NCBI GenBank assembly: GCA_001247695.2
Contig: LGRX02013719.1
Location: 1-64,000 of the forward strand
Reading direction: 5' to 3'
DNA length: 64,000 nucleotides
From: Cymbomonas tetramitiformis
Lineage: Eukaryota; Chlorophyta; Pyramimonadophyceae; Pyramimonadales; Pyramimonadaceae
Below the pieces are notes generated by a model, which saw nothing but the letters and a program-made list of their open reading frames with translations, was not told where the DNA came from and did not search any database. Made by a program: the position numbers and the translations under genes. Positions 1,020 through 58,415 of the stretch are shown here, in pieces; the stretch's first letter is position 1, and every line of letters begins with the position of its first letter.

Positions 1020-1129
1020 GATTACGTAGGAGTATGGTAAGTGAGAAGAAAGAAGATAAAAAGTTGTGTCCACAGAAAAGTATACTTGCGATAGTGAAAA
1101 TCAATTCTTAAAGATAGCATATCGCGAGT

Positions 1130-1240
1130 ACCGCGCTAGTACCACACTATTAACGCACTACTCACGCCACTAGTCCGTACTAGTCGCGCGACTAGTGCGA
1201 AATCAGATCGCACTAGTGATGTGACTAGTGCGATCTGACT
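1130..1240. repeat. ACTAGT-rich inverted-repeat cluster between divergent genes
   Basis: At least five copies of ACTAGT or CTAGT occur in about 100 bp. A perfect hairpin sits at 1205-1239: a 15-bp arm (TCAGATCGCACTAGT), a 6-nt loop and its complement. The same motif returns in inverted orientation at 3591-3607. The position, between two divergent start codons, suits a promoter or a protein-binding site, but that role is inference. Confidence 0.55.
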
Positions 1241-1368
1241 ACACGTGACGATTGAAAGGCAATCAAACGCTCGAACGCCTGGAACGTCGCGCCGGTCATT
1301 AGTTTTGAAACTTTGAAGCTTAAACATTTGAGATAGCGCCAAGTCGCTAAAGCGGGAAGGAAGGAAAT

Positions 1369-5160: not shown

Positions 5161-5773
5161 ATAAGTGCAGTCAAGAGTTCGTATGTGCATGCATGTACAC
5201 ATGTGGTTGTGCTTACACCTAAATTGGTGTTACCACTTAGGGTTTCCCCCGCTAGAGGGCCATTTGCTCCAGAAATATGCACGGAGATGCAAGTGCTTGA
5301 TATTTTATTTGTTCAAATATGTTTTATGGCAAACTACATTATAACATAGCACGTGACGGGTCCATTAGCAAGAACCTTTACATATGTTACCCGCCCTTTG
5401 TGAATACGCGTGTGATAAAGCATAGGGTTTGAGGGGGGTTTTGGCAAAATTGTGCTGAAATCGATGAAAATATCAAACATACGATAAATAGGTACATATT
5501 TTCCCTTTTTACTTCCATTTTATAACCTTTAATCTCGATCTAATACCATATGTGGATTTTTGGAACACTCCTCAATATGCCTAAGAGTCACGCGTAAGAA
5601 TTCTGAAAACCCCGCCTCGTACGATGAGAAAAACTTCCAAAATTATAACCACCCTATTTTTTGGGCATGATATGTTTAAAATAATGTAAGAAACATCAAA
5701 ACAATGACCTTCAAAAAATCTTCCAATTTAGAGCGCATCTTCCAATTAAGAGCGATCGTCGTTCTTTCAAGAT
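5161..5773. other. AT-rich intergenic, no gene seen
   Basis: No coding signal. I looked here for the left terminal repeat of the downstream Harbinger gene pair and found no convincing partner to the 8.7-9.3 kb side. Neither is there a copy of the AACACACTATTCG end seen on the 49-58 kb element. Confidence 0.5.
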
Positions 5774-21200: not shown

Positions 21201-22835
21201 CCTTCTCTTCATCCTGTCTATTATCTTTGCTGGTATGGGGGTTATGGTCTATCACTTTGACGTCAGTCAGGCCTTTGTTCATGCCCGTCTGGAGGTTCCT
21301 ATATATGTGCGGTTCCCCTCTGGGTATATGTATAAGGGCAGATATGGCTATGCCAAGCTGCTCTATGCTCTCTACGGGCTACGGACGGCTGGTGCTTCCT
21401 GGCAGAAGCTGGCCAACAAATTCATGAAGTCCTTCACCTATCAGGGAATGCACTTCACCCAGTCCACATATGACCCGTGCCTATACTATATTGTGACCTC
21501 TGTGTTCGTGGCCTTCGTGGCTGTCTACGTGGATGACTTCGGGCTGACATGTGATGATGCCTTCCACCAGGCTTTCTGGGCAGCTTTCCAGGCGGCATTC
21601 AAGAGCAAGAATCTTGGCCGCGTATGACAGCCGTCCTGCAGCTTGCGGTTGACTATGATCGGTGGGGCATTGCACTGTCCCAAACCAGGCAGATCAAGGA
21701 GCTCATGTCCAAGTTCAAGCTTCCGGCCAAAACCTTTCACAATTCGATGGATGTGAACCTCGTTATCCAGAAGCCGGAGCACCCTGATCTCACCCTTGTC
21801 ACCCCGTATCTCTCACTGCTTGGGTCCCTGCTGTAGATTGCACGGTGCACCAGGCCAGATGTGTATTATTCGGTCATATATCTGGCACAGTTCTCCTCAT
21901 GCCCCTCGGCTCAGGCCTGGGAGGCACTTCAGAGAGTGGCTCAGTATCTATACTTCACACGGCACTACCGTATCCGTTATGCTTACCCCAGTGCACCGCT
22001 TTCTGTGCTCACAATACAGGTGTATTCGGATGCTGGCCATGCTCGTGACAAACTCAACGGGTGCCTCTCCTACTCGGGGGGCATTGTATTCCTCAACGGC
22101 ATGGTCCTTCATTGGGTATGTGCCCGCCAGACTGATGCTGAGATGTCCTCCACTGGATCTGAGTATGTGGCCGCCTCTGTGGTTGGGCAGCGGGCCATGT
22201 CTGCTATCCATATGATTGTGGAGATGTTCGGATTTATCAGAATCACGCAGCAGGAGCCGGGTGTGTCTGCTCTGGCTCTGTCTACGGCCTTCCCTGCAGC
22301 TGACACTTCTTGGATGCAGAGGGCGGCCACGTTCTTCGAGAATCATGCTATGGGTCATGGTCAGATGGGCCCCGCCTCCCCCCTACACTACCAGGAGGCT
22401 GAGCCTGTTCCTGACAGCAGCCTGTATGCCCTGCCTCACGCGGTGCCAGTACCATATGATGGCACGGGCTACGAGGACGGTCCGCGGGAGTACCACTCTC
22501 AGCGGTCTGGCATGTATGGTACCTCTGGACCCTTCATTCCCAGGCTGGAGCTCCCAGTGGCTGTCATGATTGACAACCAGGCGGCCTCCTCCATTCTGAG
22601 GAATGTCATGCTATCCACCAAGATTAAGCATGTGTTGATCCGTTTTCACTGCTTTCGGGGGTGGGTGTGTGCTGGGTACCTAGTGCCTGTTTACATCAAC
22701 ACTTTACTCAACCTGGCTGATATCTTCACCAAACCTCTTCCTGGGCTCAAGGACAAGGTGCGGGTGATCATCAGCATGATCGAGTCCTTCATGGACGTGA
22801 TCCGCCCGCACCCCAGTGGTGCGGGTGACTCCTAG
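18061..22835 (+). pseudogene. inner copia Pol: protease, integrase, RT, RNase H
   Basis: The protease active site is RGIVCDSGATC (about 18307). The frame then changes near 18595, 18845 and 19090-19136, with conserved sequence passing from frame to frame. The integrase has an H..H / CAVCAR zinc region and the acidic residues in WAADATGP, LVLRTDCAPEL and WQNFMAEYVIGK. The reverse transcriptase has TIFVLNKPWKPRDG, VYHFDVSQAFVHA and the catalytic YVDDFGL (about 21526). At 21624 the frame changes again (NLGRV, then MTAVLQLAVDYD), and a TAG at 21834-21836 stands where the family has Tyr before IARCTRPDVYYS. RNase H follows with VYSDAGHARDK, SSTGSEYVAAS and KHVLIRFHCFR, ending at DIFTKPLPG and a stop at 22833. 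All catalytic motifs survive, but no single long product can be made without recoding. Confidence 0.88.
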
Positions 22836-27367: not shown

Positions 27368-30300
27368 TTGGTCTATTTGTCATGGGTTTCAATCAGCAAA
27401 ACTCAATGTACTCAATACAAATGGGGCCCGCGATCGCTGTGGCACGCGGGAAGAAGAGGACCCCCCACGACCTCCATGCAAGCCAAAAACGCCTTAAAAC
27501 AAATGGCGACAGGTTATTGCGCCAAGGATGAAGACCACGAAGACGCCTTTAAATGCCATGATATTGGAGTCAGACCCACCCTGCTTGAGGACCCGGGGGG
27601 AAGGGTCATGATAATGGACTCCGTGGGTGTAAGACCCAAGGCGGAAAAAACCCTCTCAGACCTGCGACACGCAGCCAGAGCCGGAGCAAGACTCACCGAG
27701 AAGGAGGCGATGGACTGCAGGAGGGCGATGCGGAGAAACCGCACTGAAGGGTCCCATGCGGACAGCCTCCTGAAGGGGGGAGGAAGAAGAGGAACTGCAC
27801 CCCGGAGGGAGGGCACCCCCAGGCACAGGACGGAAGGGGTCTTCTCGGACACCAGAGGCAGGGAGGCGTGGCTTAGCTCCATACAAGTGGAAACCCACAG
27901 CCTCTGTACGACGGGAGTGGCCACAGTGTCGATGCACCAGACGAAACTTGCGGATGCCCTCAACGGAATCGAGTTCGAGCAGTCGGACCAATACGACTCG
28001 CAGATGCGCAACACGATGGAAACGGTCCGGGACGGGGGATTTTCCTTCGTCCTGACTTGTGACGGCAGCCACTGGAACGTGCTCCTCTTCGGACGAAATG
28101 AGGACACCAGCGTCTCAGTCTACCTCTATGACCCGATGGGGGGGAGGACACGCGCCTACTGACGGCGCTGAGACAATGGGCAGGACCGCCGGGATGGCCG
28201 CCGGTCAACATAACGGTCTCCAGCATGGGGGTCGCACACCAGCGGGACGGATACCAATGCGGCGTCTGGGTGTGCTACATGATTGATAAGTGGCAGGAAT
28301 GGAATAGGTCCACCACGGGAGCGACGTGGGAGTCCTGGATCGGGCTGCATGGGCCCCCGGTGGGCAGAGAAGCGACGACCTCCAGGGGATACCGGGAAGC
28401 CATGAGAGGCCCAATCATGGCGCGCATAGGAGAATTGGAACAGCGGGAGCGCCACCACGTGTTCCACGGGGAGGGAGAGACTCATGACCCAATCTCCTTC
28501 GAGGAGGGGGATGACGAAATCCAAGAAGAGGCCGGCGCAGGGCCAATGCAAGTCGGGAAGAGCCCGACCAGGCAGACCCAGACAGACACGGTGCCAAAGA
28601 TCCCCGGGCACGCCCAGGAACTCCCGAAGGTCGGTGAGAAAAGGACCAGGCAGACCCTACGAAGCCCCCAAGCCACGGTGGAGAGCGAGGAGATCAGACC
28701 CAGGCCGAACCCGCCCGCACAGACGCTCCAGGGGGAAACAAGCCCCCGCCAGATCACAAAGGTTAGCCTGGACGACGGCAGAGGCACGAAGTGGAAAGGG
28801 ACCAAGGCGCAAATCATGATGCTGAGGACATGGGTCCTCGCTCAACTGGCCAAAGGGGATGTCAGGACGGGGGAGCTGTTCCAGCATGCGGCCAAAATCG
28901 GATACTCGAGAGATGCGGTTAGGCTGATGACCACGCACCTCGTAAGCAGTGAACAAGTCGTATGGGCAACGCACCCCCCTGTCAACGACTACCGGAGCAG
29001 AAACAAGTGGTGGAGGATAGACACCATGGAGCTCTCGGTAGGCACTGGCCCGACGGCTGCCAATGATCCGGAAGTGCCCGAAGAAACGGAGGAGGAACCC
29101 CAGGCCGTTGAGGCGTCCGAGAGCACCACAATCCTAGCGGTTAGGACGCACTGGGGAAGCAGGGAATACCTGCTCGGGCCAATTCGCCCACAAGGGGAGG
29201 CATGGGTCGAAGAGGACACCCTGCTGGCAGGAGGAATTGCGGGAATAAACCCGAGCCAGGCCGAACGAGAGACCGACATGTTCCACAACAAGGAGCGGGA
29301 AGAACAGCAGGCTCGGAGCCCCACAGAAAGAGAACCACTGTCAGGGACTCCCACGAGGCATGCCCACTACTGGCCGGGGGTCACCAAGCTCAACATAGAC
29401 ACTGAACCCTTTAACCCAGATTGGGACGCAGCACCCTCGGGCAAGTGCACGCTCACGACAGAGACAGGCAGGCACCACGTGTTCGCACACGACGAGCGGG
29501 GCAAGATGGTAGGCGCCCTCAAAGAGGAGGTACTCGATAGGCTCTACGACAGATATGTGGCCGCGACGGGCACGAGCAGCACAGATCAGACCCATACAAG
29601 GGCGGGGGAAGAGCGAAGGCGGTCCTTCGAGGAGCGGGAGCCACAGCTGGGCACAATCCACGGATTCGCCACAGAAGTGGTCCTCCTGCTCAAAAGATAT
29701 TCCTGCGAGGAGGAGGAGGAAGTCAAGAAAACTGCACTGCAGAATCACTGGACGCTCCCTCCAGAAATTATGCAAGCGCTCCAGGAGGCCTTCGGGATCC
29801 AGGCGGAGATATTCGCGTCGCCGCTCAACGTACACAGCCACACGGCGACATACTGCTCCAAGTTCGACAGGGACAAGATTTTTGGATCCAAAGGGTCTGC
29901 ATGGGACACCCACTGGGGAGAGCTGGGCGCCTTCGAGTTCAATCCGGAGTACACAGCGGCAGACCTGGACAAAGCGCTTCAGGAGGCCCTGATGTCCACC
30001 ATGGCGAAAACCCCGGTACTGGGGGTAGGAATTTACCCGGCCTGGACGAGAACACCAGCCAAGGCATACTGCAGGAGATATGGAGATACTAGGATACATG
30101 AATTTGGGGTGATCCCAAGAAAAAGCTTTACGTTCCTTCCCCCAGACCACTGGGGAGGCACCACAGTATCAGGTGTCACGAAGAAGGACTACAGCAACTG
30201 GGGAGTTAGGATCCTAGTTGTTGCCAACGCAGAGGGATGGCAAAAATTCTGCCCGGACCCAGAGGGGGCAGCGGAACTAGTCGGGAGGGCCCTGCAGCGC

Positions 30301-32934
30301 AGCACGTACTGCACGGTCCGTAAGTACCACACGATTCGAAACCTCAGGCCGGCCAACCCGAGGGTCCACACCTCGGAGGCAGTGTCAGACATGGCGGCGG
30401 TTAAAAATGCGATGGAGAACGCTAGTCAACACGACATGATCTTCGACCCTCACCCGATGAGAAAATGGGAAATACCGAGCATGTCGCGCAGACAGGGATG
30501 GGGGAACGGAGGGAGTGAGGTCCCCAAGGAAGACCGCACCCCGGAGGCAGCGAGGGCCATGAGACAAACATGGCGCGACAGAGGACTCACCGAGGTCACG
30601 ATCACGGAGTACCATGCGGCGAACACGGCATGGCCTTTGGACAAGATCAAAGAGGACTCGAGGGCCAGATGGCTAAAGGCAATGGAGCGCACTCCCATGC
30701 TCTTCAGCAGACAAGACAGGGACAGGGGACACACGGAAGTAAGGGAGCGGTTCCCCACGTGTCCCATTAAGCACAAAACCAGACTTTCCAGAACCCTAGA
30801 GAAAATCAACAAAGCCTGGGATGCAACCTCGTTCCTCTATACGGATGGGTCGCGACTGGACCCAGAGGAAGAAGGGGGGTTACATAGAGTAGGGGCGGCC
30901 TACTGGGACCCCAGAGGGGATGAAAACCCCAGAACCTGGAGGGGCACGTGGTCGACGGGTGGACACCTCACAATCAACAGAGCGGAACTCCTGGCGATCC
31001 ACGCGGCACTCAGGGCCAGAGAACGCACAACACCAGGCGAGATAGCAATCTGCACGGACAGCCTCTGCAGTATGCACCAAATCCTCAACATGTTGTCCAG
31101 ACCCCACACGATGGAGTGCCATAGACACAGAGATTTGCTTGAGGATATACTCTCCCTGGTCGAACAGCATAACAGCCAGGGAACGAAGGTCTCACTCAGG
31201 AAAGTCAAAAGCCACACAGGGGTGAAGGGCAACGACAAGGCAGATGAGGCGGCCAAACAGGCAGCAGAAAACCTGGAGGGAACCACCCAAATTGAACCAT
31301 GGGACAACAGGACCATGTACACGCTCGTGGCCAATGCCCGAGATGGTGAATCGATGAGGCCCCTGCAAGGGGAGGGGGCGGTGGAAAGGTATGTGGCAGA
31401 AAGGATTGCACTTAAAGCGACGCAGCACAGGTCAGTGAGAAAATGGCTACAGCCCCCGAACAGCCCGTGGGAAGAATGGGGAACACCCGGCAGGGGAAAT
31501 CGGGAAGGAGCTCTCTCAGTAGAGGGCTCTATAACGGAGAACCCCACGCCCGGCGCCCCAGGGCCAGCCCAAGGCCCCGACCGGGGCCAACAGGACGTGG
31601 AAATGGAGACACCAGGGGAGAATCTCCAGGAACTGATGCTCCTGAAGGAATTGCAGCACGCTCCCTGGAGCCAGGGCGACCCGCCGATGCGACGGGAGCC
31701 GGGCGACCAGGAGGAGCAGGTACACCTGCGGGACCAAGTGACCACTCAGGACGAGTGGGACCTACTCTGGGAATTCGATGAGACGCGGGGGCCGCCTCTT
31801 GACATGGAAGAGAAGGGGGCCATGAACTCGCCAGAAAGGGAGATGATGCAAGCGATAGAGGAGGCAGAATGTGCGGACCCAATTGACGGTCTGTGCCGCT
31901 CGATGATGGAGATGGACCTGGGAGAGTCGAAACTCCAAAACCTGACGGACGTCCCACAACAAGCGATAGACGCCTACCAGGAGGCGGCCCCAGCAAGAAG
32001 AAGAAAGAGGAACAGGGACCGGGAGGCCATGCACCGGGGAAACGGAGACAGGGCCGCCACAAGCCACGCAGACGCTGCCGCGGTCGAGACACACATGGGA
32101 AGAAGAGTGGAGGAGCCCCCACGGGAAATTCTCCAGGACAAGTCGATACCAGGAATATCCAATCACTTCTGGAAGGTTACTCCACCGACATTCAGGTCCC
32201 TGGTCCTAAGATGCCGGTTTGGGGTCCTCATGACGGCTGCCAGAAAGCACCTCATATGGCCGAACAAATATCCGGATCCGGGCTGCGCCCTCTGCGGGAA
32301 GAGGGACACTCCGGCACACAGGCTAGCTGGATGCAAAGACGAGACCAGCAGGAACATGGCCACAGCCAGGCACAACGAAGTGGCAAGGACCCTTTATGAA
32401 GCAATCAGGAAGGGTCGAACGGGTGCCAGTCCGATCTGGATTGCGCACCACGCTGGACTCGACGGGACTAACAGATGCACCCGCCCGATACCGGACTTCG
32501 TACTCAAAAGAGGCCAGTGCCGTAGGGACGGAAGGGACCACCCGGGGGCGAAGGACCCCCCAGACGACATACCACACTTTGTGGATATTGTCATGATCAA
32601 GGGTGCAGAGGACGTCAGGGACGCCCCCCCAGGCAGGCCGGAAAACACCCGCAGGGAGGATGTGGGGGAAATCCACCTCATAGAGGTGGCCTTCACGTGG
32701 GACACGCACTGGTACGTGTCCCTTCACGATAAACTCAACAAGTATGAGCCCCTTATGGAGCTACTCAGATCCAAGGGCTATAAAGTGTTCTTTCACCCGA
32801 TGGTTTTCGGAACCACGGGGTCGGTATATGAGCACAACGCAAGGGCTCTCACGCAACACCTCGGCTTCAACAAGAAGGAAGCGGAGGCCCTCCTCAAGAA
32901 AATCAGTAGCATCGCGGTGGAATGGGCAGGGTAG
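27368..32934 (+). CDS. mobile-element ORF: Ulp1-like protease, PCIF1-like MTase, RNase H, zinc knuckle, RLE-like nuclease
   Basis: One coding unit with a frame break in the G7 run near 28136-28142; from 28225 the frame is open for 1,569 residues. The part before and across the break has a C48/Ulp1-type triad: SHWNVLLF (His), VYLYDPM (Asp) and GYQCGVWVC (Cys). In the 28225 numbering, residues about 475-675 match the phosphorylated-CTD-interacting-factor (PCIF1) methyltransferase: LPPEIMQALQEAFGIQAEIF, ASPLN, FGSKGSAWDTHWG, and FEFNPEY where the family catalytic motif is NPPF. Residues 871-1005 are RNase HI: FLYTDGSRLD, TINRAELLAIHA, AICTDSLCS, GNDKADEAA. Residues 1353-1369 are CALCGKRDTPAHRLAGC, and 1420-1500 resemble the R2-type restriction-like endonuclease (IPDFVL, HFVDIVMI, IHLIEVAFTWD), ending HNARALTQHLGF. 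No F/YxDD reverse-transcriptase motif is seen. The start codon is uncertain. It sits between other mobile DNA; element ends were not found. Confidence 0.75.
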
Positions 32935-46065: not shown

Positions 46066-46429
46066 ATTATTACGTGACACCATTCATCACGCGCGCGCCC
46101 TTTCTTCAACCCCCCCGCGCGCCCGACATCATCACGTCCCGCCCCATATAAATTCAGCGACGCGAAGCAAAACTCCCAACGAAGCGAATCGGACGGGCAG
46201 CGCGATGCCATAAATCATCAATCCGACGTGGCGCGCAGCGATGCCCGTAATTATGACTGTCGTTCCTCGCCATTTTTGTTGGAGCAAAATCTGCCATGCC
46301 ATGGCGATGGAAGTGTCGTCGCGGTACAGTGACGCGAATGCAAAACTCCAAACGAAGCGAATCGGACGATCGCCGCGACTTGATTAATTATCGTTCCGAC
46401 GTGGCGCGCTCAGATGGTCGCATTCTCTG
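46066..46429. repeat. satellite block A
   Basis: It contains AACGAAGCGAATCGGACG, CATCAATCCGACGTGGCGCG, GATGCCCGTAATTATGAC and TCGCCATTTTTGTTGGAGCA in fixed order; the monomer is about 170-180 bp. The same sequence recurs at 47160-47530, 48660-49059 and 58217-58415. Confidence 0.85.
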
Positions 46430-47155
46430 ATGCAGTGCAGTGCAGTGAAATGCGATGCGATGCAATGCAATGCAATCAATGCAGTGCAGTGCAATGCGAT
46501 GCAATGCGATGCAATGCGATGCAATGCAATGCAATGCAATGCGATGCGATGCGATGCGATGCAATGCGACGCGATGCGAAGCAATGCGATGCAATGCAAT
46601 GCAATGCAATGCGATGCGATGCGATGCGATGCGATGCGATGCGATGCGATGCGATGCGATGCGATGCAATGCGATGCGATGCGATGCGATGCAATGCGAT
46701 GCATGCAATGCAATGCAATGCGATGCGATGCGATGCAATGCAATGCGATGCGAATGCGATGTGCGGTGCAATGCGATGCAATGCGATGCGATGCGATTAA
46801 TGCGATGCAATGATGCGATGCAATGCGAATGCGATGCGATGCGCGATGCGATGCGATGCAATGCGATGCGATGCGATGCAATGCGATGCGATGCAATGCG
46901 ATCCGATCCGATCCGATGCGATGCGATGCGATGCGATGCGAGGCGATGCGATGCAATGCAATGCGGTTCAATGCGCAATGCGATGCAATGCGATGCGATG
47001 CGATGCCATGCAATGCGATGCGATACGATGCGATGCGATGCAATGCGATGCGATGCGATGCCATGCAATGCGATGCGATACGATGCGATGCGATGCAATG
47101 CGATGCGATGCGATGCCATGCAATGCGATGCGATGCAATGCGATGCAATGCAATA
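46430..47155. repeat. pentanucleotide (GCGAT/GCAAT)n array
   Basis: About 725 bp of GCGAT and GCAAT units with rare variants. It is open in several frames on both strands (MRCDA or IASHR repeats), an artefact of the 5-bp period. It separates two copies of the satellite. Confidence 0.9.
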
Positions 47156-47535
47156 CTATTACTATATATTATTACGTGACACCATTCATCACGCGCGCGC
47201 CCTTTCTTCAACCCCCCGCGCGCCCGACATCATCGCACCGCCCCACCCCATGTAAATTCAGTGACGCGAAGCAAAACTCCCAACGAAGCGAATCGGACGG
47301 GCAGCGCGATGCCTTCAATCATCAATCCGACGTGGCGCGCCGCGATGCCCGTAATTATGATTGTCGCTCCTCGCCATTTTTGTTGGAGCAAAATCTGCCA
47401 TGCCATGGCAATGGAAGTGTCGTCGCGGTACAGTGATGCGAATGCAAAACTCCAAACGAAGCGAATCGGACGATCGCCGCGACTTGATTAATTATCGATC
47501 CGACGTGGCGCGCTCAGATGGTCGCATTCTCAGCA
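47156..47535. repeat. satellite block B
   Basis: Near-copy of 46066-46429, including the ATTATTACGTGACACCATTC start. It contains the uninterrupted site GCCGCGATGCCCGTAATTAT (about 47338), the target later hit by the 9.16-kb element. Confidence 0.85.
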
Positions 47536-47624
47536 TGTACACGCTGCGCATCTGGCATTCAAAGCATTGAGGGCCATCAACTCGGTGGGCACCTCTCAAA
47601 GCTTCGAGGTCCATTAGGCCGACC

Positions 47625-48528
47625 CTTTTCATAGTGTAGATCACCGTGACACGAACGCGGTACAGCAGGCACGGACGGGCGGGTTTTTGGGTCAAATCTT
47701 GTTTTGAGTGGGGATTATAGTCAAATATGGTAAAATCTTATCCAAATGGTGAATTCTGATGTGTCAAGTATGGACGCGACATCATAATAATACAGTACTG
47801 TCGTTTTTTGACAGAGTATAGGCATTTTAAAAGTTAGCAAAGTCGCTCTTTCCCCTCACTTGGGGAAGGCCATTTGGCAGGAAAGTGAATGCGCTCACTC
47901 ATCAACATTAAAGCCGCAAAGGGGTTGATAACATTAGGAGTTGCGTTGGAGGCGACGTCGTTAGCAGACGTTTGATAGCGAAAGCAGGTGTGAAGATTGC
48001 CAGTTGTATCGGCAAAACCGGCCACTGTGAAAAACATTTCAGCCGAAGATTTCGCTTTGGAATGCCCTTCAACAAAAGGCGTTGTAGAAACATCTACGGT
48101 CACGTTTGTCGACTGCGCAAGAGGTTTTAAATCGTCTGATAGAGTGCCCAGGATATTTGCAGCGACTGCACTATACGTAAGCGTTGCATCTGTGACTTGA
48201 AACCACTTGGGTCCATGAACAACTTTCAATCCGAGACAGATGGTAACACAAATGTGGAATATGATCATGATTATAATATCTATATTGCGGGACAACATGT
48301 TGCGTGTAGCGAGGTTTTACATTATCCGTGGCTGCCGTGCTGTTCAGCTGTGCAAACTGTAGAGAAAACCTAGTTCGTGAGCCATTTTACAAGTCCGCTG
48401 GCGTGTGTCCATGTCCAAATCGACTAAACTTAACACTGTTAACCGTGTACGGTGCAGATTTGACCGTGACCCGCCCCATCCTGGTACATCAGGGACGGGC
48501 GGGTCACGGTGATCTACACTATGAAAAG
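47625..48528. repeat. 26-bp perfect inverted repeat pair around an ORF
   Basis: 47625-47650 (CTTTTCATAGTGTAGATCAC...) and its exact complement at 48503-48528 enclose about 850 bp. Just outside, GGTGGGCACCTCTCAAAGC-like sequence occurs at both sides in the same orientation. A 14-bp hairpin (ACCGTGACCCGCCC) adjoins the right copy. These could be the ends of a small element; no clear target duplication. Confidence 0.5.
47834..48298 (-). CDS. hypothetical secreted protein
   Basis: A 154-residue frame opening MLSRNIDIIIMIIFHICVTI, a convincing signal peptide or membrane anchor, then LGLKVVHGPKWFQVTDATLT. The rest is Thr/Ala/Ser-rich with one potential N-glycosylation site (NVTV) and two cysteines. 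No family recognised. It lies between satellite blocks and inside a 26-bp inverted repeat pair. Confidence 0.4.
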   Translation of the reverse strand: MLSRNIDIIIMIIFHICVTICLGLKVVHGPKWFQVTDATLTYSAVAANILGTLSDDLKPLAQSTNVTVDVSTTPFVEGHSKAKSSAEMFFTVAGFADTTGNLHTCFRYQTSANDVASNATPNVINPFAALMLMSERIHFPAKWPSPSEGKERLC

Positions 48529-48659
48529 GGGCGGTCTTAGCTCGTTGGGCACCTCTCAAAGCATCGCTCTCGCGGAAACAAAACGAAAATCCAACGGTCT
48601 CTGCAGTGCGATTAACATTATGGCGATCTCGCATGAGAGACGACCTGTCCATCGGACGC

Positions 48660-49059
48660 GGGCGCACAACGCCAGCAATCATCAATCCGACGTGGCGCGC
48701 TGCGATGCCCGTAATTATAACTGTCGCTCCTCGCCATTTTTGTTGGAGCAAAATCTGCTATGCCATAGCGATGGAAGTGTCCTCGCGGTGTCACAGACGC
48801 GAAGTAAAATTCCCAACGAAGCGAATCGGACGGGCGGCGCGATGCCATAAACCATCAATCCGACGTGGCGCGCCGCGATGCGGCCCGTAATTATGGCTGT
48901 CGCTCCTCGCCATTTTTGTTGGAGCAAAATCTGCTATGCCATGGCGATGGAAGTGTCCTCGCGGTGTCACAGTGATGCGAATGCAAAACTCCCAACGAAG
49001 CGAATCGGACGGGCGGCGCTATGCCATAAACCATCAATCCGACGTGGCGCGCCGCGATG
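48660..49059. repeat. satellite block C (three partial monomers)
   Basis: Three consecutive partial copies of the same monomer, with CATCAATCCGACGTGGCGCG at about 48680, 48857 and 49033. The last is cut at GCGATG by the 9.16-kb element and resumes at 58217. Confidence 0.85.
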
Positions 49060-49332
49060 AACACACTATTCGATGAAAATGACATTATCATATGTCATTT
49101 TTGGATTTATATATATTTCAAAAAAATCAGGGTTTAGTGATATTTATGCGCGAAATAGGGATACATAAAGGCAACACGGTAGAAAAGTGCAGTATGCGTA
49201 CAATGAAAACACCGAAATATGCATACATGTATCATTCTTTATTCAAATGTTTACGAGTAGAGTACTTTTCACCCTATACCGTCGAGGCATGACTGATACT
49301 ATCAGTCAGGGCGGTCGACAAATCCTACTATT

Positions 49333-52300
49333 TTATTCATCATTATCATCTGCGTCATCTTCATCTAATTCTTCTTCCTCAGATTCGGCAGTGGCCGCTT
49401 CCTTGCCCTTCGCCGTCGGTTCGCTCTTCTGTTTTGGCTTCGTCTCGGCGTCCTGATCGGGCTCGTTGTCGAAATTGATCAGCCGTTGCTGCGCAGAGCT
49501 GACCATGAACTGGTCGTGGTCGAAGCCGATCGCGTTCATACCACACCTCATGGCGGCCATGGACGTCGAGCCGACGCCGCAGCAAGCGTCGAGAATCCAG
49601 TTGAGTGGATGGCCGTTCTCATCCATCTTGCCCGGATTGTCACCGAGCATGTGGCACTGGATCAGCTCCATCAACAGAGCTTGGGGTTTCTGATGGTTAT
49701 TCACGGCTTTGTTGTCGCGTTTGAACATCTGGTGCACAACCGGGAAGCCGCGCAAAAGTGACGCGCGGCTCACACGTTCACCTTCTCCAGTATCAAAGTT
49801 GAACATCCACTCCGGCTTTTTAGAAGACTCCCCCTGGGCATCGCTCTTTACATGGTACCCCAGGACGCCACATTCAACGTCATTTTAGCGCACGGTCCTG
49901 TTGGGGTTCATGTTCACGTTCTGCTTGTGCCAGAAGAACCGCTCCGCGCGGCCGGAGCAGTAATTGTCAATCACCTCCAGGAAATCGTTTTGTTGGACGA
50001 AACCGCAAAAGATAGCGACTCTCCATGCCGGGGCGGTGGTCTTGGCGTTGAAAGACTCCAGGAACGGTTGCACCTCCTCCTTGGTCATCGCGTCGGGAGT
50101 CTTCTCCTTGTCAAGGGCGTAATTGCAGTCGATGATCGTCCCCGTGAAGGGCAGCCTCGGGACGTCCTTCATATCGCTCATGCTGCCCTTGACGATCTTC
50201 CAACGAGGGAACATCGGCACGTTCGTCTCATGTGTGGGCTCGTCGTCCTCAAGGCCTGCCTCTCCTGGAACCTTAAGCTCCGGCCCCTCGGTCCGCGCCT
50301 CCCGATAGAGTTTGATGTCGACTTTCACCTCGACCTGTTGCAAGCCTAGGATGTGCCCCGCGCGTGGCGCCTGCGCTTCTTTGAGATTCGCCCGCGCGTT
50401 CTCGACGTAATTCAAGCTCGCGTGCGGAACTTCCCCAGATCCCCCCCGGCGCGCTCCCCCCTGAGTTGAAGGTAAGCAGCCGATCAACGACTCGATTTTC
50501 TCTTGGGAGCTCCAGTAGGGGGTGAACTCGGCCTTGAATGCGTCCCAGGTTTGCAATCCCGCCGCGGACACCAAGTGCTTCTGCACCATGCGTTCCTTCT
50601 TGAACTGGCTTATCATCAGGCCCCCCTCTTTTACTGACAACTCCTTGTTGATAATCTGGCGCAGATACGTGTCCACCTTGTCGAACTCCGCCTCCCCCGC
50701 CAAGCCGCCCAAGTTAATCCAGAACGTCATACCCATGGATTTGGCATTGTGGAGAAACTGAGCTTCTTCCACCAAAATGCCTGCCCCTTTAGACGAGCCC
50801 GCTCCGTGGTCCCCGCCTCCTCGTTGCACCTCGTCTTCCATCTGCAAGTAAAAAAAACATTTTTAGCATGTCTTAAAATATAGAAAAGGATGCTTTGGGG
50901 GGTAAACACTGTTTGAAGCAAAAGTAAAAAGTAATTTACCTGTCGGTTGGAGGTGCCCTTTTTGCCAGCTTTCTTGGCGGGTCCCTTAGCGGGCGAAGAT
51001 GAGGCCTTGCGCTTTTTGGTCTTCGAAGCCAAAGGGTTTTTCATGCCCTTCAGGTCAAACCTTCTGTAAGCCTCCATGATGCTAACGCAGAGGTCCCACG
51101 TCTGCGGCCGGAAATTGGCAATTGTCCAGTGCATGAAGTAGTGGTTGATTTGCGTGCCGCCGAACACAGAATGCTTGGACATCGCTACTTCCTTCACATG
51201 CGTCTCCATCGACTGGTTCAAGTGAGACATTACGTGGTACCAACTTGTGACCCGATCGAGGTGAGCGTTGATGTCATCGTCCAGCGTCTTCACCGTCACC
51301 TCTACCTCAGGGAGGGTCTCAGGGTCTCCCTCGCGCTCAGACGTCTCCACATCCTCGATGTACTGGAATCCCTTGGGATATTTCTCGGGATCCGGGACTG
51401 AAAATCCATGCTGTGATTCGAACTCCGCCATTTTTTGCACCAGCCCTCCGACCTCGTAATACCCAGGTTGATAAGGGGTACCCCCTTCGGTGTCCTCGGG
51501 GACACCGGCGACGAACTCGGAGATCAACGCTTCTCGGTAAACCTTGTACACGACCCCATGCTTTTCGAAAAGGGTCGAACGAAGCCCTTGCATGAACTGA
51601 GTGTTGTCTTTGCCTTTCGTCTTCTGGTCGATTTGGTTCTGCATCTCGCCTAAGAACCGAATCATGTCAGGCGTGAGACCGATGTAGATCTTGCTCTCGA
51701 AGTACGCGAAGGCTATCTCCAACGGGATTTCCTCGTGACACTCGTCGGTGGCTTGATAACAGTGCTGGTGCCCAAAAACCTTGCCTCTGTATTCTCCCCT
51801 GAGAGCTTTTTTCAGGGAGAATTCGGCACGGGTTTTGACATCGTCGATCGCAACAAGACCCGCATTGAAAGGGGCCCACGGGTTCTCCTTCCTGCTGGAC
51901 TTGATCTCGTTCACCCAGCCCCTCTCTTGATCCCGGCAGGCCTCGTACCCCGTCGCGTGGTACAGGCATTCAATGGGGAGACGAAACACACTCCCTTTCT
52001 CCGCCGCCTCGTCGAAATCCATCGGGTTCGGCCACCGGTGCTCCATCTCGATTTGCCTGCACAGCTTTGCTTTCTCCTCATAATCCATCTTTGCTGCATG
52101 CTCCACTGTTAGCTTAGCGTGCCACCCATGTGCAGCCACCTCGGCTGCCTTCCTTGCCTCAGATGGGGTGGCCACTTGAGACATATCCACATTAGCGCCC
52201 GCTCCAGTAAACGCTCTGGAGCCACCAGGTCCTTGAAGGGCGCGTTCGGCAGCACGCTGCACATCCGTTCTCCTGGCAGCCTGGGACAAGACGAAACTGT

Positions 52301-53455
52301 TCATTAGCTAATGAACGCCTTCCGCTCCGGTCAGGGCTCAGGGCGCGCGGTTTGAGGCGGAAGGCGTTCATTAGCTAATGAACGCCTTCCGTCCCGGTCA
52401 GGGCTCAGGGCGCGCGGTTCGAGGCGGAAACTGTTCATTAGCTAATGAACGCCTTCCGCCCCGGTCAGGGCTCAGGGCGCGCGGTTCGTAACGAGGCGGA
52501 AACTGTTCATTAGCTAATGAACGCCTTCCGCCCCGGTCAGGGCTCAGGGCGCGCGGTTAAAGGCGGAAGGTGTTCATTAGCTAATGAACGCCTTCCGCCC
52601 CGGTCAGGGCTCAGGGCGCGCGGTTCGAGGCGGAAGGTGTTCATTAGCTAATGAACGCCTTTCGCCCCGGTCAGGGCTCAGGGCGCGCGGTTCGGGCCCG
52701 AAAGCGTTCATTAGCTAATGAACGCTTTCCGCCCCGGTCCAGGCGCAGGGCGCGCGTTTCGAGGCCGAAAGCGTTCATTAGCTAATGAACGCTTTCCGCC
52801 CCGGTCCAGGCGCAGAGCGCGCGTTTCGAGGCCGAAAGCGTTCATTAGCTAATGAACGCCTTCCGCCCCGGTCCAGGCGCAGGGCATGAAAGGGACGTAC
52901 CGAAGCCTCTACAACAGGTATTTCGCCAGCAAGTCCGATGTCATCGATCACTGGCGCTGGCCTCCTGCTTTGCCAGAAAGGAGCTGTAATCGACGCTTTC
53001 CACGCCTGGTTTACATAGCTCGCTAGATAGAATTCTTTGCTTTTATTTTCTTCTGCTGCCCTAGTTTTCAAACTTTGAAAAGCCAAAAGCCGATTTGTGT
53101 GCTTTGGAAGGCTTAAGGTTTCCTCAAAGTTTGCGCTGTCTAATTCGATCACAGTAAGCTTCCTGTTTCTGTAAGCGACGAAATACAGAATTGGAGTCTC
53201 GTTCTCAATGATACTGTACGCTACGCGTTTCTCAGGAAGGAGGCTACCCCCGAGTACAGTCGAAGAGGTAAACTGAGGAAAACTAAAAATCATTTCTTCA
53301 TTCTGCTCGGCAGGGTCATCAGAGTGAATCACTATCTGCAAACTGTCTGGAGGATCGTCGACTTCAAGAGTTCTAACAATGCTCCACTTGTTACCAAGAT
53401 AGAGCTGGAAAATATGTTGAGCCCTCAGTGCTTGAAATGTTTCGGCTGTCGCCAT
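49333..53455 (-). CDS. DNA amino-methyltransferase-like protein, three exons, internal TAA
   Basis: Exons 53455-52901, 52280-50940 and 50841-49333 join in frame (donor GTACGT, acceptor GTCTTGTCCCAG; donor GTAAAT, acceptor TTTACTTGCAG) to about 1,134 codons. The start ATG opens MATAETFQALRAQHIF. Exon 2 has no recognised domain and ends in a basic Lys/Ser/Ala tract (KTKKRKASSSPAKGPAKKAG). Exon 3 follows the layout of a beta-class N6-adenine/N4-cytosine methyltransferase: TGTIIDCNYALD at the catalytic motif IV position (family DPPY), AERFFWHKQNVNMNPN, then HQKPQALLMELIQCH and the cofactor-binding motif LNWILDACCGVGSTSMAAMR with IGFDHDQ. Motif IV keeps D and Y but not PP, so catalysis is doubtful. 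A TAA at 49885-49887 falls between NPNRTVR and NDVECGVLGYHVK, both conserved-looking, so this copy would end before motif I unless recoded. The end is acidic. Confidence 0.7.
52281..52900. repeat. palindromic minisatellite array 1 (intron 1 of methyltransferase gene)
   Basis: Nine units of about 67 bp. Each contains the perfect palindrome GTTCATTAGCTAATGAAC, often extended by matching GGAAGGC/GCCTTCC-type flanks, and a GC-rich spacer (CCCCGGTCAGGGCTCAGGGC). The array fills nearly the whole intron, from shortly after the donor (52900) to the acceptor (52281). Confidence 0.9.
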
Positions 53456-53779
53456 TGCGAAATGAGAGAAATTGGCTGTCAACTGTGAAAGGGGTGTGTG
53501 TGAAAGAACTTTGAAAAAGTGATGTAATTTTAGCAGAATATTAAAAGTCATTTCTGGCGGCTAAAAATGACATGTCAAATATCGATGTCAATTTTAATCA
53601 AAAATGACATTCGCTGTCGCTTTCTGATTCGGTCTGTTCAGATCAAGGATATGATTTTAAGATATCCTGGTGTCATTTGCGCTGAAATCGAGGATCGATC
53701 GAGTCAGTAAGATAGGAATTCTTGGTTGACTCGCAAGTCTATATCATTTTTAGAACGTAAAAAACGGCTTCATAAGCTA
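53456..53779. promoter_or_regulatory. shared divergent promoter region
   Basis: About 325 bp between the two start codons. It contains several AAAATGACAT-like repeats (53525-53610) and TAAAATGACAT/ATGTCA inverted pairs. No TATA box is obvious. The regulatory role is inferred from position. Confidence 0.45.
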
Positions 53780-56700
53780 ATGACGGCTAATTTTGACGAA
53801 AATATGTTTTCTATTCCTTTCGATGAAGGTTGCGAGATTATCTGCAAACCGTGCCCGGGAATAGTTATTGAAGATTCTATGGAATTAGGGGCTGACTTTT
53901 TCAATCATGAGCCAATTCCAAGCACAGCCCCGAGCGCAAATACGCAATTGGTCCTTTGGAACGCGCCTTTGACGTGTAGATCGGAAGTTAGCTCTAATTC
54001 TTCACGCGTTTCTGGGTCACGCGCTTTGCGCGAAATTGACTTACAAGAGATAAAAAGCAGACTTGATACAGAATTTTCAGAGACAAGTTTGGACTTGAGG
54101 AATGAAGACCCTCTTGTTTGTTTAAATGGTGAAGTAAACAAGCAGATTGTCGTGCGCAAACCGTACGAATCCGACATACGCAAGAAACAATATACGGGCG
54201 TAATTAGTATTAAGCAGCGACGTTTGCAGGCTGACAGTATATCATTGGCAGAAACCATTAAGTGCAATTGCAAGTCGCACTGCTGTCTATCTTTCTCATC
54301 CGCAGATATTCAGTCTTTTCGCGAAAATATTTTCAGCATGTCGCAAAAAGATAGGAAGGAATACTTCGTGAAGGACTTGCTAAAAAACAGCTTTCGATCT
54401 GAGGACAAGTTCGACTTCAAATACTTTTTGGGCAAGAAGCAGGTATGTTTATTTTTGAACTCGTTCATTAGCTAATGAACGGCCTCTGGCCAAAGCGCGA
54501 CTCACACATAGACACTTTGGCTGCGGGAACCGTTCATTAGCTAATGAACGGCCTCTGGCCAAAGCGCGACTCACACATAGACACTTTGGCTGCGGGAACC
54601 GTTCATTAGCTAATGAACGGCCTCTGGCCAAAGCGCGACTCACACATAGACACTTTGGCTGCGGGAACCGTTCATTAGCTAATGAACGGCCTCTGGCCAA
54701 AGCGCGACTCACACATAGACACTTTGGCTGCGGGAACCGTTCATTAGCTAATGAACGGCCTCTGCCAAAGCTTGACTCACACATAGACACTTTGGCTGCG
54801 GGAACCGTTCATGAGCTAACGAACGGCTTCTGGCTAAGGCGCGACTCACACATAGACACTTTGGCTGCGGGAACCGTTCATTAGCTAATGAACGGCCTCT
54901 GGCCAAAGCGCGACTCACACATAGACACTTTGGCTGCGGGAACCGTTCATTAGCTAATGAACGGCCTCTGGCCAAAGCGCGACTCACACATAGACACTTT
55001 GGCTGCGGGAACCGTTCATTAGCTAATGAACGGCCTCTGGCCAAAGCGAAATTTTTCTTGGACCTTGTGATAGATTGTGTAATGTCATCACAGGAATGTG
55101 GAATATTGTATCATAAATTTCTAAATTTCATAAAGTACATTCGCGACGCGTTGGTCGAGTTGGTACGGCGCTAGGCTATGAACCTCGCACTCGTGGGTTC
55201 GATTCCCACTAAGGGTGTAGGTTGCGCAGATTTAAGGCGTGGTTTGGAGAGTCGGCTGACGAGCACGCGACGGCCGTCCCGCCTGCAGACGTGCAGTGCT
55301 GGGGGTGTCTCCCAAGCGTCTTAAATTGGCCCGACCTATAAAAACCCTTATGCTTTTCTGGATAATGTGTTAATAATTTTTGAGTGACGGTGTCTTTTGT
55401 TTTGTAACAGGTGTGCTTTAAGTTCTACTATATGGCTTACGGCATCAGCTACGGGTATCTTCACGACTGTCGGACACGCGTGCTCGAGGGCCGACACACG
55501 TTTGTTCATGGATTGACGTACGAGGAGGACAACCGCAAGATTTCTCTGAAACGCGAGTCGGTCGTCGCCTGGCTCAAGAAATACGCCGACGAATACGGAC
55601 AACACCAACCTGACAAAGAACCGATTCATCTTTCGGATGGATTGACCATCGAAGAGCTGTGGGACGAGTACAACGAGGGCTTGCAAGAGAATGAGGAGAG
55701 GAAAAAATGCTCTCTCAGTTACTTCTACAAAATATTTGACGAAGATTGCAGGAAGTGGCTCAAGATTCCATCGACGAACCGATTTTCTCAGTGCGATGTT
55801 TGCGCGTCCTTCAAGTTATTGAAGGAAGGCTTAACCAAATCTCAAAAAGGTGAATATTCATGAATAGCTTTGTGATGTGTTTATATGCTTATGTAATTTG
55901 TTCACTGACCCAAATTTGTGTATCTTGCACAGCGCAATACAACGGGCCTCTCAACAAACATCATGCAATCGCACGAGCGGAGCGCCAGAAGTTCTACAAA
56001 CATGGTCGTAAAGCGAATATGACCAAGAGCATTACCATGAACAAAACTTGGCATAAGTATGCCTCGGTGATCATCGATGGCATGACGCAGTGGACCACCC
56101 GACTGCCACACTTTCGACGTATCCCTAAACATCTGGACTCTAAGGACTTCCTTGACGTGCACAACATGGGGAGCATGATCGAGAACGTGGGCCGCTTCAT
56201 GGATTTCAACTACGCCAACTTCAAGGACGATGCGAACTTCCTTGTCAACGTTTTGCACCGGGATATCCTCCGCATTCAAGAGCATCGACGCAACGGGGAC
56301 GGGGAAAATTCATACCCGATGCCGGAAGTATTGTATGTACAGCTTGACAATGTGAGCACCAACAAGAGCAAGTTGATGTTGGCATACGCAGCTTGGCTGG
56401 TGCACACGGACGTCTTTCGCAAGGTGAAACTCAACTTTCTGTTGGTGGGACATACGCACGAGAACATTGACCAGATGTTTTCACGCTTCTCCGTGCGTCT
56501 ACGACGCAAGCAAGCTTGGACGCTCGACGAGATGATAGAGGTCGCACAAGAATGCTTTACGGATGGTGTAATATGCGAGCACACCGAGAAGATCTTCGAC
56601 TTCAGCTCTTGGTTTGATGGTCACGTCTTCGATTGCCACAATATTTTGGCACAGCAGGCTTTCAAGTTCAAGAAGAACGAGCACGGCGAAGTGGGCATGC

Positions 56701-57713
56701 AGTACAAACAGTATTCCATTTCACCCAAATGGTTACCCGAGACTCCATTGCCAAAGCTTGTTTCTACACCCCCTGTCGCGGGGCCTGGATACATCAAGCC
56801 GATTCCTTTTACCGAAGAAGGCATCGAAAAGCTTGAGCATACCTTACAGGCGTTGAAGGACATTTTGGGCACAAAGCTCACGGAGGTGCACGAAAAGTTT
56901 TGGCGCGAGGATGTCATCGAGAAACAGCGCCACCTAACTGCTGGTGGAGAATGTCAAGCGCCCGCGATACCCTTCCAGCATCCCGAGAAAATCGCCATCG
57001 AGCGCAATACCACCTTGGTTCGACTGATAGAGGCGCCCGCGTTGGCGATAGAAGCTGCCGAGGCTGCCGCCGTCCCCGCTATACCGGTGCGCATCCAACG
57101 CCGAATTGATCGAGCGCCGATAGAAGTGTACAACGGTAAACGGAAACACCAAGGTCGAGCCCAAACGCGAGCAGAGCAGTACGTGGACAACGCCCAGTGG
57201 GAGGTCACCTACGGCCAGATGACAGTCGGCAGCTTTGCAGTGGCTCTCGCGGTGGAATCTGAAAACGACAAGTTCGCGTTCCGCGTACAACTGAAGCGAA
57301 GCGAATGGTCGGATCCGTTGTACTTGGTGAAGGTGGAGGCGCGCTATCCGTCAACTCAACAGCTGCTATATCGCTATTTCCAACCCAAAAAGCACACCGA
57401 CACCAAGAAGAAGCACCTCGGCAAGCAGCTTGCGAGTCACCCAGGAGCTTTCGCAGCGCCACCGGGGCACCGACCGTCTACCGAGACTTTCGATAAGAAT
57501 GAAATAGTGCTGGCATGGAATGTGGATGCGAATGACCCCGAACGGAGTATACCGAACGAGCAATACGCGCAGATAGTCGTCGCTTTGCTTGCACAACAAT
57601 CCAAACGCACGCGCAAGGACCTAGGTGACTTGAATGAATCGGATGATTCCGATGAAGACGAAGCTTTTGATAATTGCGTAGCGGTAGCGGTAGCACCTGA
57701 AGTGGACGCGTAA
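53780..57713 (+). CDS. DUF7869-type transposase-like protein, three exons
   Basis: Exons 53780-54442, 55411-55849 and 55933-57713 join in frame to 960 residues (donor CAG/GTATGT with acceptor TTTGTAACAG; donor AAG/GTGAAT with acceptor CTTGCACAG). The start chosen is MTANFDENMFSIPFDEG; the frame is open upstream without another ATG. Order: an acidic N-terminal region; the cysteine cluster CNCKSHCCLSF; KYFLGKKQVCFKFYYMAYGI; the helical LSYFYKIFDEDCRKW; CDVCASF; VQLDNVSTNKSKLMLAYAAW and FLLVGHTHENIDQMFSRFSV, the DUF7869 hallmark; FDFSSWFDGH; an Ala/Glu linker; MTVGSFAVALAVES; an acidic end. The HTHENIDQ and QLDN acidic residues could be catalytic, which is unproven. No lesions: this is the intact counterpart of the broken copy at 1369-5160, and the best candidate to move the element. 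Confidence 0.8.
54443..55045. repeat. palindromic minisatellite array 2 (intron 1 of DUF7869-type gene)
   Basis: Nine units of about 69 bp with the perfect 22-bp palindrome CCGTTCATTAGCTAATGAACGG (one unit altered: CATGAGCTAACG) and the spacer CCTCTGGCCAAAGCGCGACT plus CACACATAGACACTTTGGCT. It begins within 20 bp of the donor. The core equals that of array 1; the spacer does not. Confidence 0.92.
55140..55350 (+). repeat. tRNA-derived SINE-like sequence in intron
   Basis: Pol III A box (TGGTCGAGTTGG) and B box (GGTTCGATTCC) are spaced as in a tRNA, with a good T arm (GTGGG / CCCAC). The acceptor arms do not pair and the anticodon loop (CTATGAA) is odd, so it is not a working tRNA gene. About 140 bp of unrelated sequence follows, ending in TATAAAAACCC. 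Confidence 0.55.
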
Positions 57714-58216
57714 AGCAAGACGGAAAAAAACATGTAAATAATATGTGTATAACGTGTATATAGATTCTGAGTCAAAAGTTCTTTGTGTTTTCACTCCTCC
57801 TAGATTTCGAAAAAGTGCATTTGACCTCAATTTTGTACCATAAAAACCATTAAATCTAATGCACAACCTGCACTTGCATGTTCTTGACTGTTAAAATGCG
57901 GCTTTTTAACTCCTATGCTAGCATGGGTTTCATTACCTCTTTGGTCGACATACCATTCGAACTTTGTCATACCATTGTTTTCGCTGAAAGACCCTACATA
58001 TATTTGGCGGTGGTTCTCATGCGGTCCATTCGACATACCCACCAAGGCCATTGGGGGTCCCTAGAGGGGTATTATGGGGCTAAAATTCAAGGAATATGTC
58101 AATTAATCTTACCCCGTTTCCGGGGTAAATACCAGCATAGGAGTTAAGCCTATCATGAGGTAAATAAGGCAATATCATTTTCACATGAGAATATCATTTT
58201 CATCGAATAGTGTGTT

Positions 58217-58415
58217 GATGCCCGTAATTATGGTTGTCGCTCGTCCTTGTCACTTTTGTTGCAGCAAAATCTGCCATGCCATGGCGATGGAAGTGTCATC
58301 GCGGTACAGTGATGCGAATGCAAAATTCCCAACGAAGCGAATCGGACGATCGCCGCGACTTGATTAATTATCGATCCGACGTGGCGCGCTCAGATGGTCG
58401 CATTCTCAGCATGCA
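58217..58415. repeat. satellite block D (right flank of 9.16-kb element)
   Basis: Continues the monomer cut at 49059: GATGCCCGTAATTATGG, then CATGCCATGGCGATGGAAGT and the CGATCGCCGCGACTTGATTA end also seen in blocks A and B. Confidence 0.85.

Follow-up and report, generated by a model that had tools for sequence, protein, structure and literature searches.

A young, high-copy DNA transposon of Cymbomonas tetramitiformis with a DUF7869 gene, a divergent methyltransferase-like gene and matched palindrome arrays in their first introns

Introduction

Sola1-1_Ec32 from Ectocarpus is a DNA transposon of 21.5 kb. According to the account given of it in PMC12477816, a protein of 1104 amino acids that combines a ParB-like domain with one of the N4/N6 methyltransferase type is encoded on the strand opposite to that of the transposase. 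For the Sola superfamily, the corresponding section of a review lists a three-aspartate (DDD) transposase, 4-bp target-site duplications, terminal inverted repeats (TIRs) of 11-1124 bp and a size of mostly 2-9 kb (PMC10741241). Here, we describe a complete element of 9.16 kb at positions 49060-58216 of a 64,000-nucleotide stretch of DNA from Cymbomonas tetramitiformis (contig LGRX02013719.1, positions 1 to 64,000; the whole stretch is called the window in the following). It pairs a gene for a protein of the family DUF7869 with a divergent methyltransferase-like gene and carries, in the first intron of each, a tandem array with the same palindrome.

Other combinations of mobile elements and methyltransferases have been described as well. 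In 2013, mariner elements of giant viruses were noted to carry methyltransferases (PMC3627910, in the part dealing with these elements), and among retrotransposons the relevant section of PMC5890265 names DIRS elements with Dam-like methylases and DNA methyltransferase (DNMT) retrotransposons of dinoflagellates or charophytes. Self-modification has been suggested for methyltransferase-carrying transposons, and what would direct the enzymes to the DNA of their own element is not clear so far.

Results

Limits, insertion site and copies of the element

The element at 49060-58216 is complete, bounded by perfect TIRs and a GATG duplication, and lies inside a satellite monomer. Its left TIR, the 23-bp sequence AACACACTATTCGATGAAAATGA (49060-49082, plus strand), recurs as a perfect inverse at the right end (58194-58216, minus strand), and a pattern search of the window with AACACACTATTCGATGAAAATGA at up to three mismatches matched just these two ends, with 0 matches expected. 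The target-site duplication GATG stands directly outside the TIRs, at 49056-49059 and 58217-58220, as read from the sequence and from an alignment with the empty site: the flanks joined with a single GATG align across the junction to insert-free satellite monomers near 46155, 47259 and 48651, and a fourth alignment, near 48764, shows three differing bases at the junction. An initial annotation of the window, made from the sequence alone, had claimed a complete 9.16-kb transposon with firm limits on the basis of the TIRs, the GATG duplication and the empty satellite monomers, and this claim is confirmed. The interrupted satellite has a unit of about 176 bp and covers 46159-49059 and 58217-58396; an ATGCA/GATGC simple-repeat block (46430-47154) sits between its monomers.

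Genome-wide searches were made in an 851.7-Mb assembly of C. tetramitiformis, whose protein records are matched by proteins of the window at up to 95%; a published long-read assembly of the species is given with 914 Mb and 68% interspersed repeats in the genome description of PMC10675990. The exact 23-bp TIR was found 1571 times (797 forward and 774 reverse), the reversed control pattern 0 times. A first look at the genome yielded 1039 candidates for the left end, 965 for a stretch of the methyltransferase-like gene and 933 for a stretch of the DUF7869 gene, 40 of each being scored. For each of the two genes, the genome thus contains no fewer than 40 near-identical stretches, and all 40 scored matches of the DUF7869 stretch were 100% identical over 501 bp, which points to a recent spread. 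About 100 of the 1571 TIR places were listed; in this part, 19 convergent pairs on the same contig were counted by eye, of which 14 span 8.6-10.0 kb and none less than 5 kb, so that no class of miniature inverted-repeat transposable elements appeared in this part of the matches.

Ten of 20 places sampled through their left end proved to be complete copies, which makes 11 together with the window copy; the ten incomplete places were left out of all counts of open frames, splice sites and ratios of nonsynonymous to synonymous substitution rates (dN/dS). Perfect 4-bp duplications flank eight of the ten complete sampled copies (CGTG, CTTA, GATG, GTCC, TGTG, GTCC, ATTA and CGTC), and two of them (L025 and L027) have no matching duplication. 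The fixed length of 4 bp is thus seen in the window copy, in these eight and in all three complete copies of two other subfamilies, which are described below. Whether the ends co-occur with the two genes, a check that the initial annotation had proposed, was examined in part: both genes lie between the ends in all ten complete sampled copies, about 1.3 kb of the methyltransferase-like gene being deleted in one of them, and the pair recurs in the two further subfamilies, which indicates that the genes travel together. In one of the incomplete places (L016, G000:C16985), near a contig end, the left end precedes the main part of the element in reverse orientation; this may be due to rearrangement of the copy or to a join made in assembly.

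Judged by its TIRs and fixed-length duplications, the element is a TIR (class II, cut-and-paste) DNA transposon, young and present in high copy number in C. tetramitiformis. The possibility that the two genes are ordinary host genes was also considered; it is ruled out by the 1571 TIRs, the numerous near-identical stretches of each gene and the position of both genes between the ends of complete copies. An origin from a prokaryote or a virus was rejected too, as viral and prokaryote contigs contained no exact TIR match, and viral contigs and phages no DUF7869 relative.

The DUF7869 gene

The plus-strand gene was delimited by its reading frame and by comparison of copies. It comprises exon 1 (53780-54442), exon 2 (55411-55849) and exon 3 (55933-57713), separated by intron 1 (54443-55410), at which the annotated protein P0001 joins as well, and intron 2 (55850-55932). 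The resulting model codes for 960 amino acids and is open in 7 of the 11 complete copies, including that of the window. In every complete copy that includes them, the splice sites of this gene and of its divergent partner are preserved, intron 2 of the partner being deleted in L020; the description of two divergent, intron-containing genes in the initial annotation therefore stands, with three exons each.

Exon 3 matches the Pfam family DUF7869 (PF25273) at about 56130-56717 with 163.7 bits (cut-off 26; E 5e-48), and a match to this family was obtained for 19 of 19 scanned relatives. An alignment of relatives, whose rows take in two frames of a second, decayed element of the window and leave out P0053, revealed three candidate catalytic aspartates: Asp416, Asp506 and Asp547 are kept in 63 of 63, 66 of 67 and 67 of 67 rows holding the respective column. 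Their codons begin at 56076, just ahead of the Pfam match, 56346 and 56469, the spacings are 90 and 41 positions, and the last aspartate is embedded in the motif GHTHxxxDQxF. A search of PDB sequences with the DUF7869 protein gave no match. Since the spacing of the aspartates fits a DDD transposase, and in view of the transposase type, the 4-bp duplications and the size given for Sola in the review section cited above, the DUF7869 protein is regarded as probably a DDD, Sola-like transposase. The initial annotation had already suspected such a role, which gains from the location of the gene inside a complete mobile element and from the three near-invariant aspartates. For DUF7869, so far an uncharacterized family, this suggests a role as transposase of mobile elements.

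Two further observations concern this gene. In the annotated protein P0007 (CYMTET_16163), the DUF7869 transposase end is fused to a protein with a PF04937 domain, possibly as a chimeric gene or as an artefact of gene prediction. Intron 1 contains a tRNA-like sequence (55140-55215) with A- and B-box-like motifs, which was reported by ARAGORN at a relaxed threshold only; tRNA and Rfam scans of the window at standard thresholds found none. As the exact B-box stretch is present in the window copy and in four of the ten other complete copies, the sequence may be a short interspersed nuclear element inserted in part of the family.

The methyltransferase-like partner gene

The partner gene is encoded on the minus strand, opposite the transposase gene, and shares with it the intergenic region 53456-53779. 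The model of 1134 codons begins with the ATG at 53455 in exon 1 (52901-53455), continues through exon 2 (50940-52280) and ends with exon 3 (49333-50841; codons 633-1134). Intron 1 (52281-52900) consists almost entirely of a tandem array, and intron 2 (50842-50939) has the form GTAAAT...TGCAG; annotated relatives read through this junction. Exon 2 is backed by relatives and by copy comparison, and exon 1, beyond the array, by relatives in subfamily 2 (E 8e-15) and subfamily 3 (E 3e-5) at about 23% identity. The partner frame is open throughout in 3 of the 11 complete copies, and both genes of the pair are open in 3 of 11.

The C-terminal part, at about 49437-50250, contains a methyltransferase-like domain, for which all three scanned relatives matched the phage DNA methyltransferases of PHROG 67 (E 1.4e-12 to 1.6e-13). 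The Pfam family N6_N4_Mtase was reached above its cut-off by one of six relatives (P0071). The alignment with the phage enzymes spans motif IV, motif X (HPxQKP) and motif I, in this order, which is the beta order. In canonical form, motif IV reads [DNS]PP[YFW], and its third position is usually proline. The partner protein has DCNY at this place (50119-50130), the phage enzymes DLPY; DC[NV]Y occurs in eight of the nine relatives in which the region is present, the ninth (P0073) has DGNY, and subfamily 3 has DVIY, with the aspartate and the tyrosine kept in all nine and in subfamily 3. Motif X reads HQKP in eight of nine relatives and in subfamily 3 (RQKP in P0077), and motif I reads DACCG[VS][GA]ST in all nine and DAGCGVATA in subfamily 3. 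With regard to the methyltransferase motifs that the initial annotation had proposed, the beta order and motifs X and I were recovered, while motif IV is DCNY rather than DPPY and thus retains only part of the canonical motif. The partner is accordingly best described as a beta-order N4/N6 methyltransferase-like protein, whose methylation activity is uncertain because of the atypical motif IV.

The partner frame of the window copy is interrupted by an in-frame TAA at 49885-49887. All ten other complete copies have TAC at this position, and the residue is tyrosine in five and phenylalanine in one of six protein relatives. Only readthrough of this stop, or its being an assembly error, would allow the window copy to yield a full-length accessory protein. 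The earlier picture of a methyltransferase-like gene travelling with the transposase thus holds as to linkage, and has to be qualified for the very copy from which it was drawn.

The gene pair in other subfamilies

Two further, diverged subfamilies carry the same pair. Subfamily 2 is rarer and was found at six places with 87-100% identity to P0074. Two of these (L038 and L039) are complete, with perfect 23-bp TIRs AACACGCTATTCGCAGAAAATGA and the duplications TGCG and GGTA. Compared with the window family, its transposase is 65% identical over 827 columns and its partner 54% over 877 codons. Subfamily 3, represented by L044, has perfect 19-bp TIRs AACACGCTATTCGATGAAA and the duplication TTAT; the third exon of its transposase is 57% identical to that of the window family over 573 residues and the methyltransferase part of its partner 42% over 277 residues. 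Between subfamilies 1 (the window family) and 2, the partner shows a dN of 0.42 at a dS of about 2.1, which is near saturation, and a dN/dS of about 0.2; for exon 3 of the transposase, dN is 0.22, dS about 2.8 (likewise near saturation) and dN/dS 0.08. The maintenance of the pair across subfamilies together with the low dN/dS values indicates that the pairing is old and under constraint.

The methyltransferase-like gene of subfamily 2 apparently lacks the second intron (L039, also L034 and L038), and L039 has a single open frame there. Of the transposase exon of subfamily 3, the genome contains at least 74 copies that are nearly identical (G000:C25363, C871 and others), which marks a second recent burst. 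The window itself contains the second, decayed DUF7869-type element mentioned above (1-5160). Its plus-strand transposase-like gene (1351-5160) is split between frames and keeps the motifs FDG, QMDG and VGHSHNDVD, its divergent minus-strand gene runs from about 1018 toward the start of the window, and in the intergenic stretch (1160-1240) inverted repeats around CACTAGTG (AGATCGCACTAGT...ACTAGTGCGATCT) were recognized by eye.

Paired palindrome arrays in the first introns

The initial annotation did not mention two palindrome-bearing arrays, which lie in the first introns of the two genes. Array 1 (52299-52885), in intron 1 of the partner gene, is composed of 8.7 copies of a 67-bp unit, and array 2 (54457-55048), in intron 1 of the transposase gene, of 8.6 copies of a 69-bp unit. 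Tandem-repeat and pattern searches showed that both units contain the palindrome GTTCATTAGCTAATGAAC, and that the spacer of array 2 is unrelated to that of array 1. At up to two mismatches, the 16-bp core of the palindrome was found 19 times in the window, always inside the element, with 0.01 matches expected. A degenerate version, TTCATAAGCTAATGAC (53769-53784), overlaps the start codon of the transposase gene. Over the 11 complete copies, the arrays vary from 3.7 to 9.7 and from 4.6 to 11.3 units.

Arrays are found in the same two introns of the other subfamilies, each with its own palindromes. In subfamily 2, the units are of 67 bp with GTATCATTAGCTAATGATAC and of 68 bp mostly with GTATCATTGGCCAATGATAC. 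In subfamily 3, they are of 144 bp (four sites CTCATTAGGCTAATGAG) and 93 bp (eight sites GCTCATTAGGTTAATGAGC); elsewhere in the element, TCATTA and TAATGA are each present a single time. Within one element, the palindrome is matched between the two introns and differs by subfamily, the period and the spacer not being matched. When repeat units were anchored in the spacer, the palindrome was somewhat better conserved than the spacer, with 0.944 versus 0.883 for 67 units and 0.993 versus 0.948 for 85 units. The match within an element and the change between subfamilies point to one sequence-specific factor per subfamily.

Outside the element, reading of the open reading frames (ORFs) of the window suggested a copia-like retroelement (19030-22835), a long ORF that includes an RNase H-like segment (28132-32934) and a PIF/Harbinger-like transposase gene (5750-7029).

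Discussion

The explanation that we favor, with some reservation, is that of a cut-and-paste transposon whose DUF7869 DDD transposase is accompanied by an accessory protein that binds the subfamily-specific intron arrays and thereby marks the DNA of its own element. The 960-amino acid transposase would cut at the 23-bp TIRs and insert the element with a 4-bp stagger, and the divergent gene would give rise to an accessory protein of about 1134 amino acids whose C-terminal domain resembles N4/N6 methyltransferases of the beta order. A DNA-binding protein encoded by the element would occupy the arrays, which flank the divergent promoter; most likely this is the accessory protein, the natural candidate because the transposase should recognize the TIRs. 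Such binding would amount to a recognition of the DNA of the own subfamily, which might then be marked by methylation if the enzyme is active and by occupancy if it is not, and the mark might tune expression or counter silencing. The ends, the duplications, the copy number, the linkage of the two genes in three subfamilies, the conserved motifs and the matched arrays are established by the observations above; catalysis by either protein, the binding to the arrays and the effect on silencing are the parts of this explanation which we infer.

Several observations weigh against it. The partner frame is fully open in only 3 of the 11 complete copies. Within the family, the dN/dS of the partner is 0.67, a sign of weak constraint, determined as means over seven copies of which four are not fully open. 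The protein of the window stays below the N6_N4_Mtase cut-off (25.3 versus 26.7 bits), as do five of six relatives, and the proline at the third position of motif IV is absent in all nine relatives and in subfamily 3. Searches of the accessory protein revealed neither a ParB domain nor any other DNA-binding domain: ParB was not matched in Pfam, NCBIfam or PHROGs with an E value of 10 or less, nor in the PDB, and the signal against the ParB proteins of P1 and N15 was not above that of unrelated proteins. A likeness to ParB was seen by eye only (GHQH ... LTPDMIRFLGExQN). As to the transposase, an RNase H-like Pfam family was matched a single time and weakly (E 0.074), by one of 19 members. Half of the 20 sampled places are incomplete in the fetched stretch and count neither for nor against linkage; five of them end with their contig (L014, L016, L018, L030 and L031), and the other five have no second TIR despite sufficient contig (L015, L022, L026, L032 and L033). 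Among the relatives, L043 is a further methyltransferase locus with no transposase within 9.9 kb. In the fetched stretch, L045, a second copy of subfamily 3, corresponds to L044 over only its last 2.2 kb and lacks one gene, and L040 matches the transposase no further than about residue 296.

Some of these points lead directly to other explanations. The accessory protein could be a catalytically dead methyltransferase fold that binds DNA and regulates or pairs elements while methylating no base. The series DC[NV]Y, DGNY and DVIY in place of the DLPY of the phage enzymes agrees with this, and no catalysis is required of a protein that binds arrayed sites; the retention of motif X, motif I and the aspartate and tyrosine of motif IV, which suggests that use of the cofactor was retained, speaks against it, and we regard a dead enzyme as possible, if doubtful. 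A different question is which protein would bind the arrays. The main alternative to the accessory protein is the transposase, for which they might serve as enhancers or internal binding sites. Sharing of the palindrome within an element and its divergence between subfamilies are equally expected of the transposase's own sites, and the degenerate palindrome at the transposase start codon fits such a role. Given, however, the distance of about 3.2 kb between the arrays and either end, and a core that is, as judged by eye, unlike the TIRs, we consider this rather unlikely.

It is also conceivable that no DNA-binding protein is involved. The arrays could act in RNA, as intron hairpins which affect splicing or feed small RNAs, with a single RNA-binding or RNA-processing factor accounting for the match between the introns. 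In line with this, each of the three subfamilies examined has them placed between exons, and the folding energies of the two array stretches lie about 106 and 126 kcal/mol below the mean of ten shuffles each. These shuffles preserved mononucleotide and not dinucleotide composition, however, and good folding is to be expected of every tandem palindrome, so that the energies cannot tell the explanations apart; moreover, an RNA stem alone would not impose identical letters on both introns. A function in RNA thus appears unlikely to us. Still less probable is that the arrays are neutral minisatellites which expanded twice from a short common palindrome. Minisatellites do expand readily, as the range of 3.7 to 11.3 units among the 11 complete copies illustrates, but a palindrome that is matched and yet changed at the same two places in three subfamilies is hard to obtain by drift, and the spacers are unrelated and the periods different (67/69, 67/68 and 144/93 bp).

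A more specific version of the favored explanation, in which the accessory protein marks its own element, is put forward here tentatively: the methyltransferase-like protein would bind the palindromes of its subfamily, co-evolve with them and regulate its own copies only, as part of a self-recognition system resembling ParB-parS. In the centromere arrays parS and sopC, sites are recognized by a ParB protein encoded on the same element, and they serve plasmid partition together with a ParA ATPase. For the transposon, this likeness is a proposal; no ParA was seen in the element, and its ParB searches were negative as described. The three diverged subfamilies share one genome, and as each of them is equipped with a transposase, a methyltransferase-like partner and matched arrays, natural test pairs of proteins and sites are at hand. 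If each partner prefers its own palindrome, self-recognition by the accessory protein is directly testable.

Compared with other mobile elements, the methyltransferase-encoding Tc1/mariner transposons are likewise DNA transposons with a methyltransferase. They differ from the present element in that they combine a Tc1/mariner transposase and an endonuclease with other domains (Methyltransf_26, cytosine C5). The DIRS and DNMT retrotransposons, as far as the section cited above describes them, also carry a DNA methyltransferase of their own, but they are retrotransposons with other classes of enzyme. With the Sola superfamily, the element shares the 4-bp duplication that the consulted review section gives for it (PMC10741241); a DDD transposase is suggested by the pattern of aspartates. 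The duplications of Sola2 are AT-rich according to the passage on this group in PMC3627910, while those found here are mixed (GATG, CGTG, CTTA, GTCC, TGTG, ATTA, CGTC, TGCG, GGTA and TTAT).

The nearest likeness is that to Sola1-1_Ec32. The initial annotation had called the gene content unusual, a view that is not supported in this form: the pairing of a transposase with a methyltransferase is not new in kind, because Sola1-1_Ec32 carries an opposite-strand N4/N6 methyltransferase, as laid out in the account of this element (PMC12477816). Both are DNA transposons of algae, and the opposite-strand proteins are of similar length, with 1104 amino acids in Ectocarpus and 1134 here. By comparison of descriptions, the C. 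tetramitiformis element differs in its size of 9.16 kb, in that hidden Markov models detect no ParB domain, and in the palindrome arrays in both first introns. The account of Sola1-1_Ec32 in PMC12477816 mentions no such arrays, and a literature search with narrow terms, covering few subscription journals, found no report of palindrome arrays in transposons of this type. Next to a gene pair that is shared with Sola1-1_Ec32, the matched intron palindrome arrays are apparently the new part of the element.

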